Shown in pieces: positions 418-33,655 of a DNA stretch of 64,000 nt. The notes under the pieces were generated by a model that saw only the letters and a list, made by a program, of their open reading frames with translations, ran no database searches and was not told the DNA's origin. Each line of letters starts with the position of its first letter. Position 1 is the stretch's first letter. The stretch comes from Alphaproteobacteria bacterium bin52 (GTDB taxonomy: Bacteria; Pseudomonadota; Alphaproteobacteria; Thalassobaculales; Thalassobaculaceae). The stretch covers positions 1-64,000 of the forward strand of contig MPMT01000017.1 of NCBI GenBank assembly GCA_002238645.1, read 5' to 3'. A program made the translations under genes and the position numbers.

Positions 418-433
418 TGTTTCACGTGAAACA
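418..433. other. parS: parS centromere site 1
   Basis: TGTTTCACGTGAAACA, a perfect 16 bp palindrome identical to the bacterial chromosomal parS consensus bound by ParB. It lies between the parB stop and the group II intron, in non-coding DNA. Confidence 0.95.
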
Positions 434-457
434 GTCGCGGCTGTTCACCTCGTGACG

Positions 458-1381
458 CTAGTCCGGGTCCTGGTTGTTCGGACGGGCATCGTCTTCCCGC
501 GGTTCCGGCCGGGCAAAGCCCGCGCCGACCGACAGGCATTCGAGCAGACGGTCCAGCTGGCGCAGCGAGGTGTACTGGATGATCATTGTGCCGCGCTCCG
601 GTGTCTTCTGGGTGATCTTCACACGAGTGCCAAGGGATTCGCCGAGACTTTTCTCGACCGCCTGCAGGTTCGGGTCGGGACGCCGGCGGGGCCTGCGGGG
701 CCGGACGGGGCCGGTCTTCTGTTCGCGGCGCACCAGTTCCTCGGTTTCGCGCACCGAGAGACCCTCGGCCAGGACCCGTTGTGCCAAGACCTCGGGCTCC
801 GAAGCAGCGAGCAGCGCGCGGCCATGACCGGCGGACAGCTGTCCCGATTGCAGATGTTGCCGAATCGCGGCCGAAAGCGACAACAGCCGGGTCGTATTGG
901 CAATGTGACTCCGGCTCTTGCCGACCAGTCTTGCAAGGGTTTGCTGCGTATACCGGTGATCGGACAACAGCCTGCGGTACCCCTCCGCTTCCTCGACCGG
1001 CGTCAGGTCGGCGCGCTGAACGTTCTCAATCAGCGCCACTGCAAGCGCTCGAGGCTCTTCCATCTCCTCGATCAGTGCCGGCAGTTCGTGCAGGCCTGCA
1101 AGCTGCGCGGCACGCCAGCGCCGTTCCCCTGCGACGATTTCGTACGCGGAGTCTCCGGTTCCGGCAGGTCTCAGCAACAGTGGTTGCAGTACGCCGTGAT
1201 GGCTGATGCTCTCGGCCAGTTGTTCGAGTTCGGTCTGCTCGAACAGGCTTCGCGGCTGGTTCCGGCCCGGCACGATCTGTTCGATCGGCACCGAACGCAG
1301 CCGCGACGTTTCCTCGCCTCCCAGCAGCGAGCCCAGACCACGGCCCAGACCACGGCGTTCACGTCCAGTTTTCTGCGTCAT
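458..1381 (-). CDS. parB: Chromosome-partitioning protein ParB
   Basis: The 307-residue product is the CTP-dependent DNA clamp that loads at parS and drives origin segregation with ParA. The basic N-terminus with GLGRGLGSLLGG is the typical ParA-interacting leader. The ParB/Srx domain follows, with motifs matching NPYQPR (here GRNQPRS, about residue 39) and GERRWRAAQ (about 85) and the ENVQRADL box (about 118). A helix-turn-helix lies around 145-190 (LVGKSRSHIANTTRLL) and a dimerisation domain at the C-terminus. The ATG overlaps the parA stop (ATGA), so the two are translationally coupled. Four parS sites lie within 4.6 kb, which supports the chromosomal rather than plasmid type. Confidence 0.96.
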   Translation of the reverse strand: MTQKTGRERRGLGRGLGSLLGGEETSRLRSVPIEQIVPGRNQPRSLFEQTELEQLAESISHHGVLQPLLLRPAGTGDSAYEIVAGERRWRAAQLAGLHELPALIEEMEEPRALAVALIENVQRADLTPVEEAEGYRRLLSDHRYTQQTLARLVGKSRSHIANTTRLLSLSAAIRQHLQSGQLSAGHGRALLAASEPEVLAQRVLAEGLSVRETEELVRREQKTGPVRPRRPRRRPDPNLQAVEKSLGESLGTRVKITQKTPERGTMIIQYTSLRQLDRLLECLSVGAGFARPEPREDDARPNNQDPD

Positions 1382-2196
1382 GATGCTGTCAGCCTGCCTT
1401 CCCGCTCAAGGACCTCGCGCGCGAGCTTGACGTAGGCCTGCGATCCCGCGCATCGCAGGTCGTACACCAGGGCCGGGATTCCGTGTGACGGAGCCTCGGA
1501 AATCCGCACGTTTCGCGGAATGACGGTCTGGTAGACCAGATCCCCCATATGGTGACGCACGTCGTCTTCAACCTGCCTTGACAGGTTGTTGCGGCCATCG
1601 AACATCGTCAAGACCACTCCCTGGACCGCGAGCTGCGGGTTGAACGACCGCCGGATCCGCTCGACTGTTTGGAGCAGCATGCTCAGTCCTTCCAGGGCAT
1701 AGAACTCGCATTGCAACGGTACCAGTACCCCGCCCGAGGCGACCAGCGCGTTCAGTGTCAGCAGTCCGAGCGATGGCGGACAGTCGATGAACACGACATC
1801 CGGGCTGTCGGACGTCTCTGCGAGATACTGTTCGAGCACGGCCCGTACCCGGTACTCCCGTTCGGCCAGTTCCACCAGCTCCAGCTCTGCGCCGGAAAGG
1901 TCAGGCGTGCTCGGCACCAGCGACAGGCCCGGAACCACGGTTGGCAGCACCGCCGACTGAAGGTCTGTCGATCCTGCAAGAACCGCATAGATGTCCCGAC
2001 GCCGGTCCTGGCGGGAAACACCAAGCCCGGTGCTTGCATTGCCCTGAGGGTCGAGATCGATCACAAGCACGCGAAGTCTGTACGCCGCCATCGCGGTCGC
2101 CAGGTTGACCGCGGTCGTGGTCTTGCCCACCCCGCCCTTCTGGTTTGCCAGCGCCAGTACCCTTGGCCGGCCTGCGGCCGGCTGTTCACGTGCCAT
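1378..2196 (-). CDS. parA: Chromosome-partitioning ATPase ParA
   Basis: The 272-residue deviant Walker ATPase moves ParB-parS complexes over the nucleoid. The Walker A motif KGGVGKTTT starts at residue 20 and carries the signature lysine. The DLDPQGNAST Walker A' segment and the FIDCPPSLG Walker B follow. The start chosen is the ATG at 2196, just before AREQPAAGRPRVLALANQKGG; the open frame continues upstream inside rsmG but that part is not ParA-like. The gene overlaps the rsmG 3' end by 11 bases and the parB start by 4, giving a tightly coupled mnmG-rsmG-parA-parB order. Confidence 0.95.
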   Translation of the reverse strand: MAREQPAAGRPRVLALANQKGGVGKTTTAVNLATAMAAYRLRVLVIDLDPQGNASTGLGVSRQDRRRDIYAVLAGSTDLQSAVLPTVVPGLSLVPSTPDLSGAELELVELAEREYRVRAVLEQYLAETSDSPDVVFIDCPPSLGLLTLNALVASGGVLVPLQCEFYALEGLSMLLQTVERIRRSFNPQLAVQGVVLTMFDGRNNLSRQVEDDVRHHMGDLVYQTVIPRNVRISEAPSHGIPALVYDLRCAGSQAYVKLAREVLEREGRLTAS

Positions 2197-2816
2197 CGCC
2201 AAGCCCTTCCATTCGAACCACGGTACTGCCCGGGCTGGACAGGCTCGGAATGGCACTGACCCGCAGCCGGATGCCGGCGGCAATGGTGTCGAGCTCCCGT
2301 GCCACGGATCGCCCCTTGGGAAACAGGCACACCGTGTCGGCGTGCACATGCGGCTGCGCCAGCGTGATCAGCCGGTCAAGCGGCGCGCACGCACGTGCAG
2401 TCACAACGTCAAATTGCCCTGCCTGCAGTGCCTCGATCCGGACCGGGTGCACGCTGACCCTGGTTCCGGTTTCCCGGGCCACCTGTGAAACGAAACCACA
2501 CTTGCGGGTGTCGGAGTCGACGAGATGCACGTCACGAGCCCCGAGCATGGCCAGGACCAGGCCCGGAAACCCGGCTCCGGTTCCGATATCGAGCACGGAA
2601 CAAGCCGGATCCGGAAGCAGGCCGAACAGCTGGGCGCTGTCGAGAAAGTGCCGGCTCCAGACCTGATCGAGCGTCGATGCGGAAACCAGATTGATGGCCC
2701 GTTGCCACCGCCGAAGCATCGCTTCGTAGTGGTCCAGCTTCTCCATGGCCGCCGATGATGCGCCGAGTGCCGCGCGAAAGGCATCGCGCTGACTGAGGTG
2801 ACCGACGGCGCTCACG

Positions 2817-4685
<1,869 letters not shown>

Positions 4686-4735
4686 CTTCCTGCCTCCACA
4701 TGATGCGGAACCGGTGCATACCAGAGTCAGCGACA

Positions 4736-4751
4736 TGTTTCACGTGAAACA
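4736..4751. other. parS: parS site 3, upstream of mnmG
   Basis: A third perfect TGTTTCACGTGAAACA, about 50 bases upstream of the chosen mnmG start. ParB loading here could interfere with or regulate mnmG-rsmG-parAB transcription. Confidence 0.95.
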
Positions 4752-5304
4752 TGGAGCCTGTATGGAATATCGCCGACATCGCGCCGCCGTCCTCCGATCG
4801 TTTCGCGGCTCCCGGGCCGGACGCTCATTGCGAGGGTGTGTTGACAGCACCGGCTCCGCGCTGTTGTTCGTCATTGTATCCTGTACCGTATCCACATCGT
4901 TCATGCGTACCCCATGCCCGGTCCCGTCACATGCCGGCTGCTGCCGCGGAAGTCCCCGAAACTTGGGCTCCCGACCCGATGACAACTGTTTCACGTGGAA
5001 CATTCCGGTCCATCGCTTGGGCGTCACATCATCGTGCGGCGCATCCAGGATCGCTCGCATGGTGCCGGGACATTCGTGCGGATCCAGTCCTGTTTCAAAC
5101 GTACTATAGTAAATATTATCAATCGGTTATGCTGGATTTCGAGCGGCGGAGAAGGCCGGCGGACACTCCATTCACTCGGCCGACACCCCCGGGGTTCGGT
5201 CCTTTCCGCCACACCGGGTTTCCACTCCGATCCCGGGTCGGTGCCTTGTCTGTCGGACCGATGCTCCGCCACGGCACCGTGTCCGGCAGACACGTCCCGC
5301 GAGC
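4752..5304. other. Non-coding interval mnmE-mnmG with parS and AT-rich patch
   Basis: About 550 bases between the mnmE stop and mnmG hold no convincing gene. Small open frames such as 4740-5060 on the minus strand owe part of their sequence to parS (MFHVKQ). The notable content is parS site 4 and an AT-rich patch at 5100-5132 containing the 10 bp palindrome TACTATAGTA (5102-5111), unusual in this GC-rich DNA. It may carry the promoter for mnmG-rsmG-parAB, but no clean -35/-10 pair is seen. Confidence 0.6.
4987..5002. other. parS: parS site 4, one mismatch
   Basis: TGTTTCACGTGGAACA differs from the perfect palindrome at one position. Its reverse complement, TGTTCCACGTGAAACA, is a known functional natural variant in other bacteria. 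It lies in the non-coding stretch between mnmE and mnmG. Confidence 0.85.
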
Positions 5305-6621
5305 CTACTTGCCGATGCAAAAGTCCCGGAAGATCACATCGAGCAGCTGTTCAACATCGACCCTGCCGGTCACGCGTCCGAGTGCGTCCGCGCCGGCCCG
5401 GGCGTGTTCGGCAACGATCTCGAGCCCGGCGCCACGTTCCAGATCCGCCTGCGCGGCTGCGAGATGGCCGATGGTCGCAAGCAGCGCCGCCCGGTGTCGC
5501 GCCCTGGTGAGCACCGGCCGACCCGCAACGTCCATCCTCTCGCGCGCCAGCGTCGTGAGCGACCGGAGAAAGGGCTGAAGCCCGGCGCCGGACCTGACCG
5601 AAGTCGCGTGGGCCGGCCGTGGAGCCTCGAAGGCCGGATCGAGGTCTATCTTGTTGAACACGACGAGATCGCTCTCCGGGAACACGACGGTCTCCCGGTG
5701 ATGATCCCCCGTGGCATCGAATACCAGCACGCGAAGGTCGGCGTGATCCGCCCAGTCCTGCGCCCGTCTGACGCCTTCGGCCTCGATGCTGTCGCGCGCG
5801 GTTCGCAACCCGGCGGTATCGGCGACGATGACCGGGAACCCCGCAAGATCGAGGTGAACCTCGATCACGTCACGGGTAGTTCCGGCATGTTCCGACACGA
5901 TGGCGGCATCACGGCCCGCGAGCCAGTTGACCAGCGACGACTTCCCCGCGTTCGGTGGCCCGACCACCGCGACCCTCAGACCATCCCTCAGCCTTTCCCC
6001 TCGCCTCCCGTCATCAGCGAAGGTCTCCATCTCGAGGCGCATGCGGCAAAGCCCGTCGAGCGCTGCATTGACTGCGGTTTCAGGGATTTCCTCGTCCGGA
6101 AAGTCGATCCACGCCTCGATGTGCGCCCGCAGGTACTGGATCTGTTCCGCCCATTCGTCGAGCCGTCGCGCCAGCCCGCCCTCGAGCTGCACCAGGGCAG
6201 CCTGCCGCTGGGCCTCGGTCTGCGCGACCACGAGATCGTTGACGGCCTCGGCAGCGGTCAGGTCCAGCCGGCCGGCGAGAAACGCCCGGCGGGTGAACTC
6301 GCCCGGCTCGGCATGTCGCCAGCCCGGGCAGCGAGCGAGCACGCCCATCGTGCGCTCGAGGACGGCACGGCCCCCATGCACGTGCAACTCGACGACATCC
6401 TCGCCGGTGTAGCTTCCCGGCGCCGGAAACCACACTACGAGACCGCGATCCACCAGTTCGCCGTCGTCGCGGAACGCGCGCAGGGCAGCACGGCGCGGAG
6501 CAGGCAGCACGAACCCGAACAACCGCGCGGCCGATGCCGCGTCACTGCCCGATATGCGCACCACCGCGACGCCGGAACGGCCGGCTGCGCTTGCGAGCGC
6601 GAAAATGGTGTCCCCGCTCAT
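5305..6621 (-). CDS. mnmE: tRNA-modification GTPase MnmE (TrmE)
   Basis: The product is the GTPase partner of MnmG in wobble-uridine modification. The 438-residue protein has an N-terminal formyl-THF-binding domain (IFALASAAGRSGVAVVRISG, residues 6-25; PGSYTGEDVVELHVHGG, 68-84). The GTPase domain inserted in the helical domain has G1 GPPNAGKSS (221-229), GTTRD (247-251), DTAG (268-271) and NKID (about 326). It ends in the invariant FCIGK with the catalytic cysteine. It is usually followed or preceded by rho in this group; here it faces an unrelated accessory block instead. Confidence 0.96.
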   Translation of the reverse strand: MSGDTIFALASAAGRSGVAVVRISGSDAASAARLFGFVLPAPRRAALRAFRDDGELVDRGLVVWFPAPGSYTGEDVVELHVHGGRAVLERTMGVLARCPGWRHAEPGEFTRRAFLAGRLDLTAAEAVNDLVVAQTEAQRQAALVQLEGGLARRLDEWAEQIQYLRAHIEAWIDFPDEEIPETAVNAALDGLCRMRLEMETFADDGRRGERLRDGLRVAVVGPPNAGKSSLVNWLAGRDAAIVSEHAGTTRDVIEVHLDLAGFPVIVADTAGLRTARDSIEAEGVRRAQDWADHADLRVLVFDATGDHHRETVVFPESDLVVFNKIDLDPAFEAPRPAHATSVRSGAGLQPFLRSLTTLARERMDVAGRPVLTRARHRAALLATIGHLAAAQADLERGAGLEIVAEHARAGADALGRVTGRVDVEQLLDVIFRDFCIGK

Positions 6622-28573: not shown

Positions 28574-29395
28574 CTATCCCTCGCGGCCGTGAAACCGGGC
28601 ATAGTGCTGCAGGATTCCGGCGGCCGTCTCCTCAATCGACCGGCGCGTGACATCGATGACCGGCCATCCCTCCGAGTGGAACAGCCGGCGCGCCGCCGTC
28701 ACCTCCCGGCGCACGGTCTCGAGATCGACATAGTCGCTTCCCTGTTCCTGTCTGAGCATGAGCATGCGGTTTCGCCGCAGCTGCGTCAGTCTGACCGGAT
28801 CATTGGTCAGCCCCACGATCAGGCGTCCGCGCACTGTCTGGATCTGCGGCGGCAGCGGCATCCCCGAGACCAGGGGCACGTTTGCGACCTTGTAACCCCG
28901 GTTGGCAAGATAGAGCGCGGTCGGCGTCTTTGAGGTCCGGGACACGCCAAGCAGGATGATGTCTGCTGCATCCAGGCTGTCGAGCAACTGCCCGTCATCA
29001 TGGGTGAGGGTGTAGTCCATCGCCTCGATCCGCTCGAAATAGGCGGCATCCAGGCGGTGTTGCCGGCCCGGGCGGCCCTCGCTCTCCACCCCCAGATACT
29101 TGCCCAGGGTATCCAGGACCTGATCGAGGACCGGGACGCACGGCACCTGCAGGCGCTGGCATCCGTCCTCGAGACGGCGGCACAGGGTCTTGTCGATGAT
29201 GGTGTAGAGAACCGGTCCGGGGTAGGACTCGATCGCGGTGAGGATCCGGTCCACGTGTTCGCCTGAACGAACCAGCGACCAGACGTGCTCGGTGGCCCGC
29301 ACCCCCTGGAACTGGACCATGCACGCGCGCACGACCTGGTGGTTTGTCTCCCCTGTCGCATCCGATACAAGGTGAATGTGAATTCGCGTCGACAT
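28574..29395 (-). CDS. ppsR: Pyruvate-phosphate dikinase/PEP synthase regulatory kinase-phosphorylase (DUF299)
   Basis: A 273-residue bifunctional ADP-dependent kinase and Pi-dependent phosphorylase that switches pyruvate phosphate dikinase or PEP synthase off and on. It has HLVSDATGET at the N-terminus, the P-loop-like LLGVSRTSKTPTALYLANRG (about 146-165) and GLTNDPVRLTQLRRNR (about 200). This is the gene known as RP001 or duf299 that flanks the origin in Rickettsia and Caulobacter, and it diverges from hemE here as there. Confidence 0.94.
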   Translation of the reverse strand: MSTRIHIHLVSDATGETNHQVVRACMVQFQGVRATEHVWSLVRSGEHVDRILTAIESYPGPVLYTIIDKTLCRRLEDGCQRLQVPCVPVLDQVLDTLGKYLGVESEGRPGRQHRLDAAYFERIEAMDYTLTHDDGQLLDSLDAADIILLGVSRTSKTPTALYLANRGYKVANVPLVSGMPLPPQIQTVRGRLIVGLTNDPVRLTQLRRNRMLMLRQEQGSDYVDLETVRREVTAARRLFHSEGWPVIDVTRRSIEETAAGILQHYARFHGREG

Positions 29396-29721
29396 CGACT
29401 CCGCACCAGGCCCGCGGGGGCAGAACGGTTTGTGGAAGAAATGACAGTCTTGTTACAGCCGGCCGGGATACTCACGGTTTTCCCAGCACCTCTCATCTGC
29501 GGCAATGGCCAAATACCGTGAATCCACGACCTGTGGAAAAACGCCCGGTATTGCGGCTGAACCGGTTCCGATGCCCGGCTCCGACAGCCGTCCATGCCCG
29601 CCGGCGTGGGTGAACATCTTCTGAAGAACCTGTTCGTTCATGCAGAATTCCACTACTCACCACTCCCCAACTCAACAGTCATACTAAAGTATATGTCATA
29701 CATGGGTTGAAAGGGACGTGT
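29396..29721. other. oriC: Candidate chromosomal replication origin (oriC)
   Basis: This 326-base divergent spacer lies between duf299/PPSR and hemE, which is exactly where oriC sits in Caulobacter and Rickettsia. Visible elements are DnaA-box-like TGTGGAAAA (29532-29540, one mismatch from TGTGGATAA) and TGTGGAAGA (29431-29439, two mismatches) in the same orientation. Two GANTC methylation sites (29397-29401 and 29520-29524) are present. An AT-rich end at 29670-29702 has a repeated GTCATAC (29678-29684 and 29695-29701) flanking ATACTAAAGTAT. No CtrA-type TTAA-N7-TTAA is seen. Position is the strongest argument. Confidence 0.65.
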
Positions 29722-30756
29722 GTGAATGAACCTCTGATCCTGCAGGCCCTGGCCGGCGCCCGGACGTCCCGGCCACCGTTCTGGCTCATGCGCCAGGCTG
29801 GGCGGTACCTGCCTGAATACCGTGCGGTGCGCGCGAAGCGGGACACCTTTCTCGAACTGTGCCTTGATCCGCCACTGGCGGCCGAGGTCACGCTGCAGCC
29901 GGTCCGCCGGTTCGGTCCGGACGCCGCCATCGTGTTCTCCGATATCCTGGTCATCCCGTTCCTGCTTGGCCGCGACGTCCGGTTCGTGGAGGGGACCGGA
30001 CCCGTGCTGGATGCGATCGACAGCGTGCACGAACTGGGCCCGCTACCCGCACGGATGACCGCATCGAGGATCGCGCCGGTCTACGAGACCATCGCGCGGG
30101 TGCGCGCGGCGCTTCCCGGCGAGGTGGCGCTGATCGGGTTTGCCGGGGCTCCATGGACCGTCGCGACCTACATGGTGGAGGGCGGAAGCAGCCGGGATTA
30201 CCTGCGCACGAGGCGGTGGCTCTATGCCGACCCGGAAGGGTTCTCCGCGCTGATCGAGGCGCTGATCGAGGCGACCATCGCCCATCTCGACGCTCAGGTC
30301 GAGGCGGGCGCCCAGGTCGTGAAGCTGTTCGACAGCTGGGCCGGGGTTCTGGCTCCGCCCGCCTTCGAGCGATGGTGCATCACGCCGACCAGGCGCATCG
30401 TTGCCGCGCTGCACCGGCGTCATCCTGGTGTGCCCGTTATCGGTTTCCCGCGTGGTGCGGGAGCCGGCTACGCTGAGTTTGTCCGTGGTTCCGGTGTCGA
30501 TGCGGTGGCGATCGATACCTCGGTCCCGCCCGAGTGGGCCGCGCGGGTCCTGCAGCCGCTGGTTCCGGTGCAGGGCAATCTCGACCCGGCGGCTCTGGTT
30601 GCGGGAGGCACGGGCATGGCCGGTGAGGTGCGCAGGATTACCCGCGCGCTGTCGCGCGGCGCGCATGTCTTCAATCTTGGCCACGGGGTATTGCCCTCCA
30701 CGCCACCGGATCACGTCGGGGAGCTGGCGGAGCTGCTCAGGTCGGGAACGGTCTAG
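29722..30756 (+). CDS. hemE: Uroporphyrinogen decarboxylase
   Basis: The product converts uroporphyrinogen III to coproporphyrinogen III in heme synthesis. The 344-residue protein has PPFWLMRQAGRYLPEYR (active-site entry), FSDILVIPFLLGRDV with the catalytic aspartate, GFAGAPWTVATYMVEG, and the C-terminal FNLGHGVLPSTPPDHV. The GTG at 29722 is chosen because AAGGGA lies 5 bases upstream; the alternative TTG at 29707 would overlap that site. hemJ follows after 9 bases. Confidence 0.95.
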   Translation: MNEPLILQALAGARTSRPPFWLMRQAGRYLPEYRAVRAKRDTFLELCLDPPLAAEVTLQPVRRFGPDAAIVFSDILVIPFLLGRDVRFVEGTGPVLDAIDSVHELGPLPARMTASRIAPVYETIARVRAALPGEVALIGFAGAPWTVATYMVEGGSSRDYLRTRRWLYADPEGFSALIEALIEATIAHLDAQVEAGAQVVKLFDSWAGVLAPPAFERWCITPTRRIVAALHRRHPGVPVIGFPRGAGAGYAEFVRGSGVDAVAIDTSVPPEWAARVLQPLVPVQGNLDPAALVAGGTGMAGEVRRITRALSRGAHVFNLGHGVLPSTPPDHVGELAELLRSGTV

Positions 30757-32656: not shown

Positions 32657-33655
32657 ATGAACCGGATATTCTCGGGCATCCAGCCGTCGGGAAACCTCCA
32701 GCTCGGCAACTACCTGGGCGCGATCCGCAACTGGGCCAGGATGCAGGACAGCCACGAGTGCATCTACTGCGTGGTCGACCTGCACGCGATCACGGTGCCC
32801 CAGGACCCGGCGGAGCTGAGAAGGGCGACGCGGGAAGTCGCCGCCGGCGTCATCGCCGGCGGCGTCGATCCGGACCGCTCGGTGATCTTCGTCCAGAGCC
32901 AGGCTCCCGAACATGCCGAGCTGGCGTGGATCCTCAACTGCGTTGCCAGACTCGGCTGGCTCAACCGCATGACCCAGTTCAAGGACAAGGCGGGCGCCGA
33001 CCGCGACGGCGCCACGGTCGGGCTGTATACCTACCCGGTCCTGCAGGCTGCGGATGTCCTTGCCTACAAGGCGACCGATGTTCCGGTCGGTGAAGACCAG
33101 AAACAGCACATCGAGCTTGCCCGGGACATCGCCCAGGCCTTCAATTCCATGTTCGACACCGACTTCTTCCCGCTGCCCGAGCCGCGCATCCAGCCCGAAG
33201 CCGCCCGGATCATGAGCCTGCGCGACGGCACCCGGAAAATGAGCAAGTCGGATCCGTCCGACTACTCGCGCATCAACATGACTGACGGCGCGGACCTGAT
33301 CGCCCGCAAGATCCGGCGCGCGAAGACCGACCCGGCCCCGCTTCCCGATCACGCTGAAGCGCTCGAGGGCCGCCCGGAAGCCCGGAACCTGGTCACGATC
33401 TACGCAGCGCTCGCCGAGGTGTCGCAGGAGACCGTTGTCGAGCGATTTGCCGGCAAGGGGTTCGGAATCTTCAAGTCGGAACTCGCTGATCTCGCCGTCG
33501 CCGTACTCGGACCGATCGGCGAGGAGATGCAGCGCCTGATGGCAGCGCCCGACGAGGTCGATGCGATCCTGGGCCGCGGCAACGCCCGGGCCCGCGAAAT
33601 TTCCGGGCCGATCATTCGTGCAGCACAGGACATCGTCGGGTTCCACCGGGCGTGA
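32657..33655 (+). CDS. trpS: Tryptophanyl-tRNA synthetase
   Basis: A 332-residue class Ic synthetase that charges tRNA-Trp. The HIGH-type motif is within [16 protein letters not shown] (6-21) and the KMSKS loop is KMSKSD (about 196-201). [10 protein letters not shown] and [15 protein letters not shown] are further signatures. In most relatives trpS follows murJ; here it follows rho. Confidence 0.97.

Follow-up and report, generated by a model that had tools for sequence, protein, structure and literature searches.

The intergenic stretch at positions 29396–29721 is, with high confidence, the chromosomal replication origin (oriC) of this alphaproteobacterium, of the alphaproteobacterial hemE/COG1806 type. 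Independent computed signals place it there, and taken simply as an origin it conforms to its type. As an initiator–origin pair it is an unusual variant. Judged by sequence comparison, the DnaA protein of the genus is hyper-diverged, although purifying selection still acts on it, and the core of related origins, a box plus ACTAC, appears to be missing. Our inference is that the initiator and its origin changed jointly, without leaving the ancestral site. The window, that is, the whole stretch analysed, covers bases 1–64,000 of the 68,420-base contig C99 of genome G000 (4.20 Mb in 120 contigs). Just one further genome of the genus was returned, G001, called the sibling below; its homologous interval lies on contig G001:C83 (274,964 bp), and conclusions about the genus rest on these two genomes. 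The closest named record to the PPSR protein of the window is from the metagenome-assembled genome 'Alphaproteobacteria bacterium jk18x7bins.67' (JAJEAR010000012.1; 96% identity).

Two divergent genes bound the interval. PPSR (DUF299/COG1806; 28574–29395, minus strand) reads leftward from its start at 29395, and hemE (29722–30756, plus strand) reads rightward from its most likely start, a GTG at 29722 preceded by AAAGGGA. The limits that an earlier note had proposed for a candidate origin, 29396 and 29721, thus follow from both gene starts, and the intergenic stretch between hemE and COG1806 exceeds 300 bp. Among 111 loci with PPSR or hemE, 103 hold both genes, divergent in every case (103/103; window and sibling are each counted twice). 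Eighty loci were picked via PPSR, so that its presence there is not independent; the presence of hemE alongside is independent and was seen in 79 of the 80. According to PMC1914354, the origins of Caulobacter and Rickettsia lie between hemE and COG1806, in agreement with the earlier placement of this locus at the oriC position of those organisms. An Rfam search returned no matches.

The locus passed the GC-skew check named in the earlier note, to the extent that it could be applied, with the switch located at this region. In the window contig, cumulative skew drops to about 28–34 kb and then climbs; the change is from negative to positive, and the observed range was reached by none of 2000 permutations of 1-kb blocks. 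The raw minimum falls at 33,415, 3.7 kb to the right of the origin. The sibling shows a weaker change (range reached by 21 of 2000 permutations), and its minima (raw, 260,920; detrended, 255,698) flank its interval near 257.0 kb, the raw minimum being the place that corresponds to 33,415 in the window. In a single-contig relative (G021), the sign flips between 2,350–2,370 kb and 2,373–2,393 kb, with hemE at 2,372.5 kb. Twenty stretches were sampled in that genome: between 235 kb and 2.37 Mb all 11 were negative, and between 2.373 and 4.5 Mb all eight were positive, as was one at the start of the record.

Partition functions lie near the origin. A motif scan found four exact parS sites 24–29 kb away (419, 3281, 4737 and 4988; together spanning 419–5001), and the 4.2-Mb assembly is otherwise without exact parS. 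Six other sites have one mismatch, and a backwards control pattern gave seven matches vs ten. The origin-proximal operon parB-parA-rsmG-mnmG-mnmE occupies 458–6621 on the minus strand.

Two DnaA-box-like 9-mers had been reported in the interval, and both are present on the minus strand and conserved in the sibling. The first, TCTTCCACA (29431–29439), has one mismatch to TTWTNCACA and lies within a 34-nt block identical in both genus members (29416–29449); the second, TTTTCCACA (29532–29540), is the sole perfect box of the 68-kb contig. With up to one mismatch allowed, the 68,420-bp contig contains a single perfect site and 12 further sites that have one mismatch; the origin interval, with the perfect site and one other, is its top 330-bp stretch for boxes. 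The homologous interval of the sibling is likewise the top box cluster of its 275-kb contig. TTCCAC occurs three times in the interval vs 0.18 expected. That the origin has only two clear boxes counts against the origin call. Both boxes differ from the family-wide conserved elements, whose core sits nearer hemE.

When the whole genome is considered, denser box arrays exist in an IS110-type element. Other tandem perfect DnaA boxes in G000, considered as extra origins, were traced to this element and rejected. Its domains (PF01548 and PF02371) were identified in the C94 copy, and near one end of the element are two to four DnaA-box-like 9-mers of the type TTATCCACAgTTTTTCCACAaggTTATCCACA, 11–12 bp apart. 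Seven copies were aligned, on G000 contigs C11, C17, C37, C60, C83, C94 and C100; five of them lie close to contig ends, and such clusters are not listed for the sibling.

The AT-rich end described earlier stands out in both measures applied: no other 100 bp of the contig are as AT-rich as 29613–29712, and the 80-mer of lowest stability in the 64-kb window is 29624–29703 (101.3 kcal/mol vs a mean of 127.7, sd 5.6; 4.7 sd below the mean), a candidate unwinding element. The AT content of the whole origin is above the averages of the contig and the window, the two references compared. Alignment of window and sibling revealed a further identical block of 31 nt at 29615–29645, which is genus-specific (best match in other intergenic regions, 19/31); a second-longest identical run of at least 31 nt arose in 3 of 5000 column shuffles. 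Taken together, skew switch, proximity of parS and parAB, box cluster, unstable 80 bp and synteny support the candidate oriC reading.

The shorter motifs contributed less. GTCATAC is present twice, at 29678 and 29695, but its sibling counterparts are GCCATAT and GCCATGC, so that the repeat is unconserved and lends no support. Both GANTC sites exist (29397 and 29520), but about 0.5 is expected and the sibling has just one; the count is therefore not clearly above chance, and the sites do not serve as origin evidence. Two consensus forms of the IHF site gave no match in the origin, where a weak site could escape detection. We also found no TGNTCCACA there, which we take to be the Caulobacter-type form of the G-box.

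No TTAA-N7-TTAA CtrA site occurs in the interval, as had been stated before, and the suggestion that firing may be controlled differently from Caulobacter is borne out by the gene content of the genus. CtrA was found in neither genus genome and in 5 of 13 family relatives (E 1e-40), ChpT in neither and in 10 of 21 relatives, and the CcrM RAMA domain in neither and in 11 of the 13 family relatives searched, a search that would miss a methylase without RAMA. Because the two assemblies are about 97% and 95% complete, the shared absence is probably real. The features of CtrA-type control (origin CtrA sites, CtrA or ChpT in the genome) were thus not found, nor were those of CcrM-type control (clear GANTC enrichment, the RAMA domain of CcrM in the genome). 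GcrA is retained in both genus genomes (G000:C16:17907-18248 and G001:C30:22652-22990), though the other three were not found, and occurs in 16 of 21 relatives. Loss of HdaA was considered and rejected, since an Hda-like protein is present.

We compared the initiator itself across the family. The DnaA of the window genome (G000:C115) has domains I, III and IV (Pfam DnaA_N, Bac_DnaA and Bac_DnaA_C). Against TIGR00362, 15 full-length family relatives scored 530–563 bits and the genus pair 399 and 404; six further family relatives gave just fragments or poor matches. The two proteins of the genus are 91% identical to each other and 39–42% identical to those of family relatives, which in turn are 62–79% identical to that of G016, a member of the sister genus g7. 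Identity to G021 was 41% for the window vs 72% for G016. DnaN, whose gene adjoins dnaA on G000:C115 (locus L113, 233–1354), was 54% vs 71% identical in the same comparison; it too is fast in this genus, and DnaA is therefore not the sole replication protein affected. For other proteins, the window and G016 values were near equal (PPSR 65/70, HemE 55/60, Rho 83/89, MnmE 51/47, HemJ 67/65 and Maf 45/46) or intermediate (DnaQ 54/66 and partial MnmG 64/72; compared through G023, ParA 65/76, ParB 49/59 and RsmG 49/62). In a set without PPSR, dN/dS between the genus pair was 0.216 for DnaA, like that of hemE (0.223), from which we conclude that dnaA has been kept functional. In the 1.5-Mb single-contig relative G020, the DnaA matches (G020:C1:722975-723928) are pieces with several internal stops, and dnaA looks decayed in this almost complete reduced genome.

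The divergence extends to residues that hardly vary elsewhere. At 114 near-invariant positions, defined on 56 alphaproteobacterial DnaAs, the window protein breaks 32 and that of the sibling 33, the next highest number being 8. PMC10721633 describes Lys222 and Glu223 of B. subtilis DnaA as backbone contacts at the fork. The window protein has alanine at the Lys222 equivalent, a position that is K or R in 60 of 61 reference sequences. Four positions of the DNA-binding domain that are the same in all 61, the equivalents of E. coli Q408, M411, L422 and T436, read H, I, Q and S here. Kept are the equivalents of R399, D433, H434 and T435, residues of the helix-turn-helix that contact bases, which fits the retention of TTCCACA boxes.

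The origin sequence has changed as well. The intergenic alignment of relatives contains one strong block adjoining the AT-rich end, consisting of TAATCC(A/C)C, TC-CA and then ACTAC. A profile of this core was made from 20 relatives (17 of the family and three of other families), each scored with its own genus or family left out, and all 20 scored 8.5–34.6 bits at the expected position. The window scored −0.9 bits and the sibling 0.7, both on short fragments at the core position, and a scan of the full window with this profile of the family (f1) gave no match at the origin. The fragment in the window, TTCCACTAC (29648–29656, plus strand), is a leftover of the family core with one CTA trio at 29653–29655. 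Two further family loci scored 7.9 (G009, PPSR adjoining hemE) and 16.1 (G003, truncated flank), so that the core is kept in all 18 other family loci scored that have PPSR beside hemE (the 17 and G009). The sister genus g7, whose PPSR is 71–74% identical, also keeps it. Five family hemE loci without adjacent PPSR (G017, G025, G028, G029 and G032) scored 0.7–6.3; these loci are rearranged and were counted neither for nor against core loss. By these alignments the window genus is judged to lack the core and to carry, in its place, the conserved 31-nt block at 29615–29645. The published rule for the layout of the basal unwinding system, BUS (box with up to two mismatches, spacer of 0–16, at least three trios), had no match in the window, the sibling or 11 of the 20 profile relatives, and most matches elsewhere were off the core; for these reasons it was not used as evidence. 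The family core is only BUS-like, as a three-trio run is found at the site in few relatives.

We propose that DnaA would load on the two minus-strand TTCCACA boxes at 29431 and 29532 and that the least stable AT-rich stretch adjoining hemE, at about 29624–29703, would melt for helicase loading. The 31-nt block at 29615–29645 may take part, and ParB–parS, about 25 kb to the left, would then segregate the new origins. DnaA and the core may have changed because each depends on the other, a causal link to which we give an even chance. This coupling is the weakest step of the proposal, since other families lack the core with an ordinary DnaA. There the profile scores are near zero (in G049, for example, core −0.1 and DnaA 562 bits), so the core can be lost while DnaA stays ordinary, and for the same reason a class-wide link between the two, considered over 17 further hemE loci, was dropped.

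The same observation is what makes ordinary drift of non-coding DNA, unrelated to DnaA, a serious competitor as the cause of core loss. Intergenic DNA turns over fast, and two genomes are few. Drift has to be set, however, against the retention of the core in every comparable family locus and in the sister genus, and against the 34- and 31-nt blocks that stayed identical in the window pair. We regard it as quite possible, if short of probable. The second alternative, which we consider unlikely, is that a donor outside the family supplied the divergent DnaA, which would then not have diverged in place. Its identity to every other alphaproteobacterial DnaA compared is about equal (36–42%), and the best value among 384 other genomes of the class is 45%, which speaks for acquisition. 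In a DnaA tree, however, the genus pair groups with its own family (91/97), on a branch longer than that of E. coli or the Bacillota; the tree has long branches and is not fully settled, and the long-branch placement is unsure (an Aeromonas row was left out of the tree and the counts). In addition, dnaA sits beside dnaN, and E. coli DnaA is less alike (38%), though a donor could be unsampled. A plasmid donor was considered and rejected, as no close match was found. Diverged DnaAs were also seen in two other families (G039:C7:290683-292041 and G047:C1:167-1489; 34–44% identity to the DnaAs compared, long branches) and are possibly independent cases.

The location of the origin leaves much less room for doubt than does the coupling of its changes to those of DnaA. 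The region could be merely a divergent ppsR/hemE promoter region, its conserved blocks being promoters and the true origin lying elsewhere nearby; the blocks do stand at promoter-like distances from PPSR and hemE, and the skew has its raw minimum at 33,415. But this minimum falls within the trpS ORF (32657–33655), where there is no sizeable gap, and scans for sigma-70-type promoters (29380–29740) and terminators found none. Moreover, the interval contains both the unique box cluster and the least stable 80 bp, and PMC1914354 gives hemE/COG1806 as the established origin site in Caulobacter and Rickettsia. We therefore consider a promoter-only region very improbable. For a move of the origin beside dnaA in this genus one could cite that, in each of the two dnaA contigs, the region upstream of dnaA is the 300 bp richest in AT and that it carries a perfect TTATTCACA box conserved in both genus members (0/4 relatives examined have a perfect box there, one having a one-mismatch box). 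Such a move was rejected on GC skew and is scarcely credible, because to the left and right of dnaA (on the separate contig C115, and likewise in the sibling) the skew is negative, without a switch, and it switches at hemE, parS is on the hemE contig, and the box is explicable by an autoregulatory dnaA promoter. These AT-rich regions lie at about G000:C115 13040-13600 and G001:C18 79300-79900, and autoregulation is probably the role of the box in both.

With the origin at hemE, the genus offers a natural experiment. Bacterial replication cannot do without DnaA and oriC, which rank with its most constrained parts; here 32 of 114 near-invariant residues are lost, the start site is ancestral and close relatives have the standard pair. 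Such a system may reveal which DnaA residues and origin elements are truly required and how initiator and origin change together, and it would be a candidate initiator–origin pair without cross-reaction with standard ones. More speculatively, it might be a natural, essentially orthogonal pair, in which DnaA and core co-diverged at the ancestral site in a lineage without CtrA, ChpT and CcrM, and which would open without the canonical box–trio geometry or the fork lysine, perhaps via 29615–29645; we hold this to be rather doubtful. Our literature search, which mostly did not reach subscription journals, found no report on the origin or DnaA of this genus.

The BUS layout consists of tandem DnaA boxes, a spacer and DnaA-trios, as given in PMC8287927 and PMC10721633. 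The window resembles it in having a CTA trio beside the AT-rich end and a DnaA with AAA+ and helix-turn-helix domains; unlike BUS, it has no set of three trios with a box at most 16 bp away, and the Lys222 equivalent is alanine. With Caulobacter crescentus Cori and the Rickettsia prowazekii ori it shares flanking genes, AT enrichment relative to the genome (for this origin, relative to contig and window) and size class (326 bp vs 384–404 bp; PMC1914354). Few and non-consensus DnaA boxes are used in Caulobacter too, according to PMC4468827. Unlike those origins, that of the window is without a CtrA site, the IHF consensus and the TGNTCCACA G-box, and CtrA, ChpT and the CcrM RAMA domain went undetected in its genus. 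Its interval is about 80–140 bp shorter than those of family relatives, which keep TAATCC(A/C)C, TC-CA and ACTAC, whereas window and sibling do not. With the family origins (G002, G004, G016, G021 and others) it has in common the location, the divergent flanks and the AT-rich end beside hemE.
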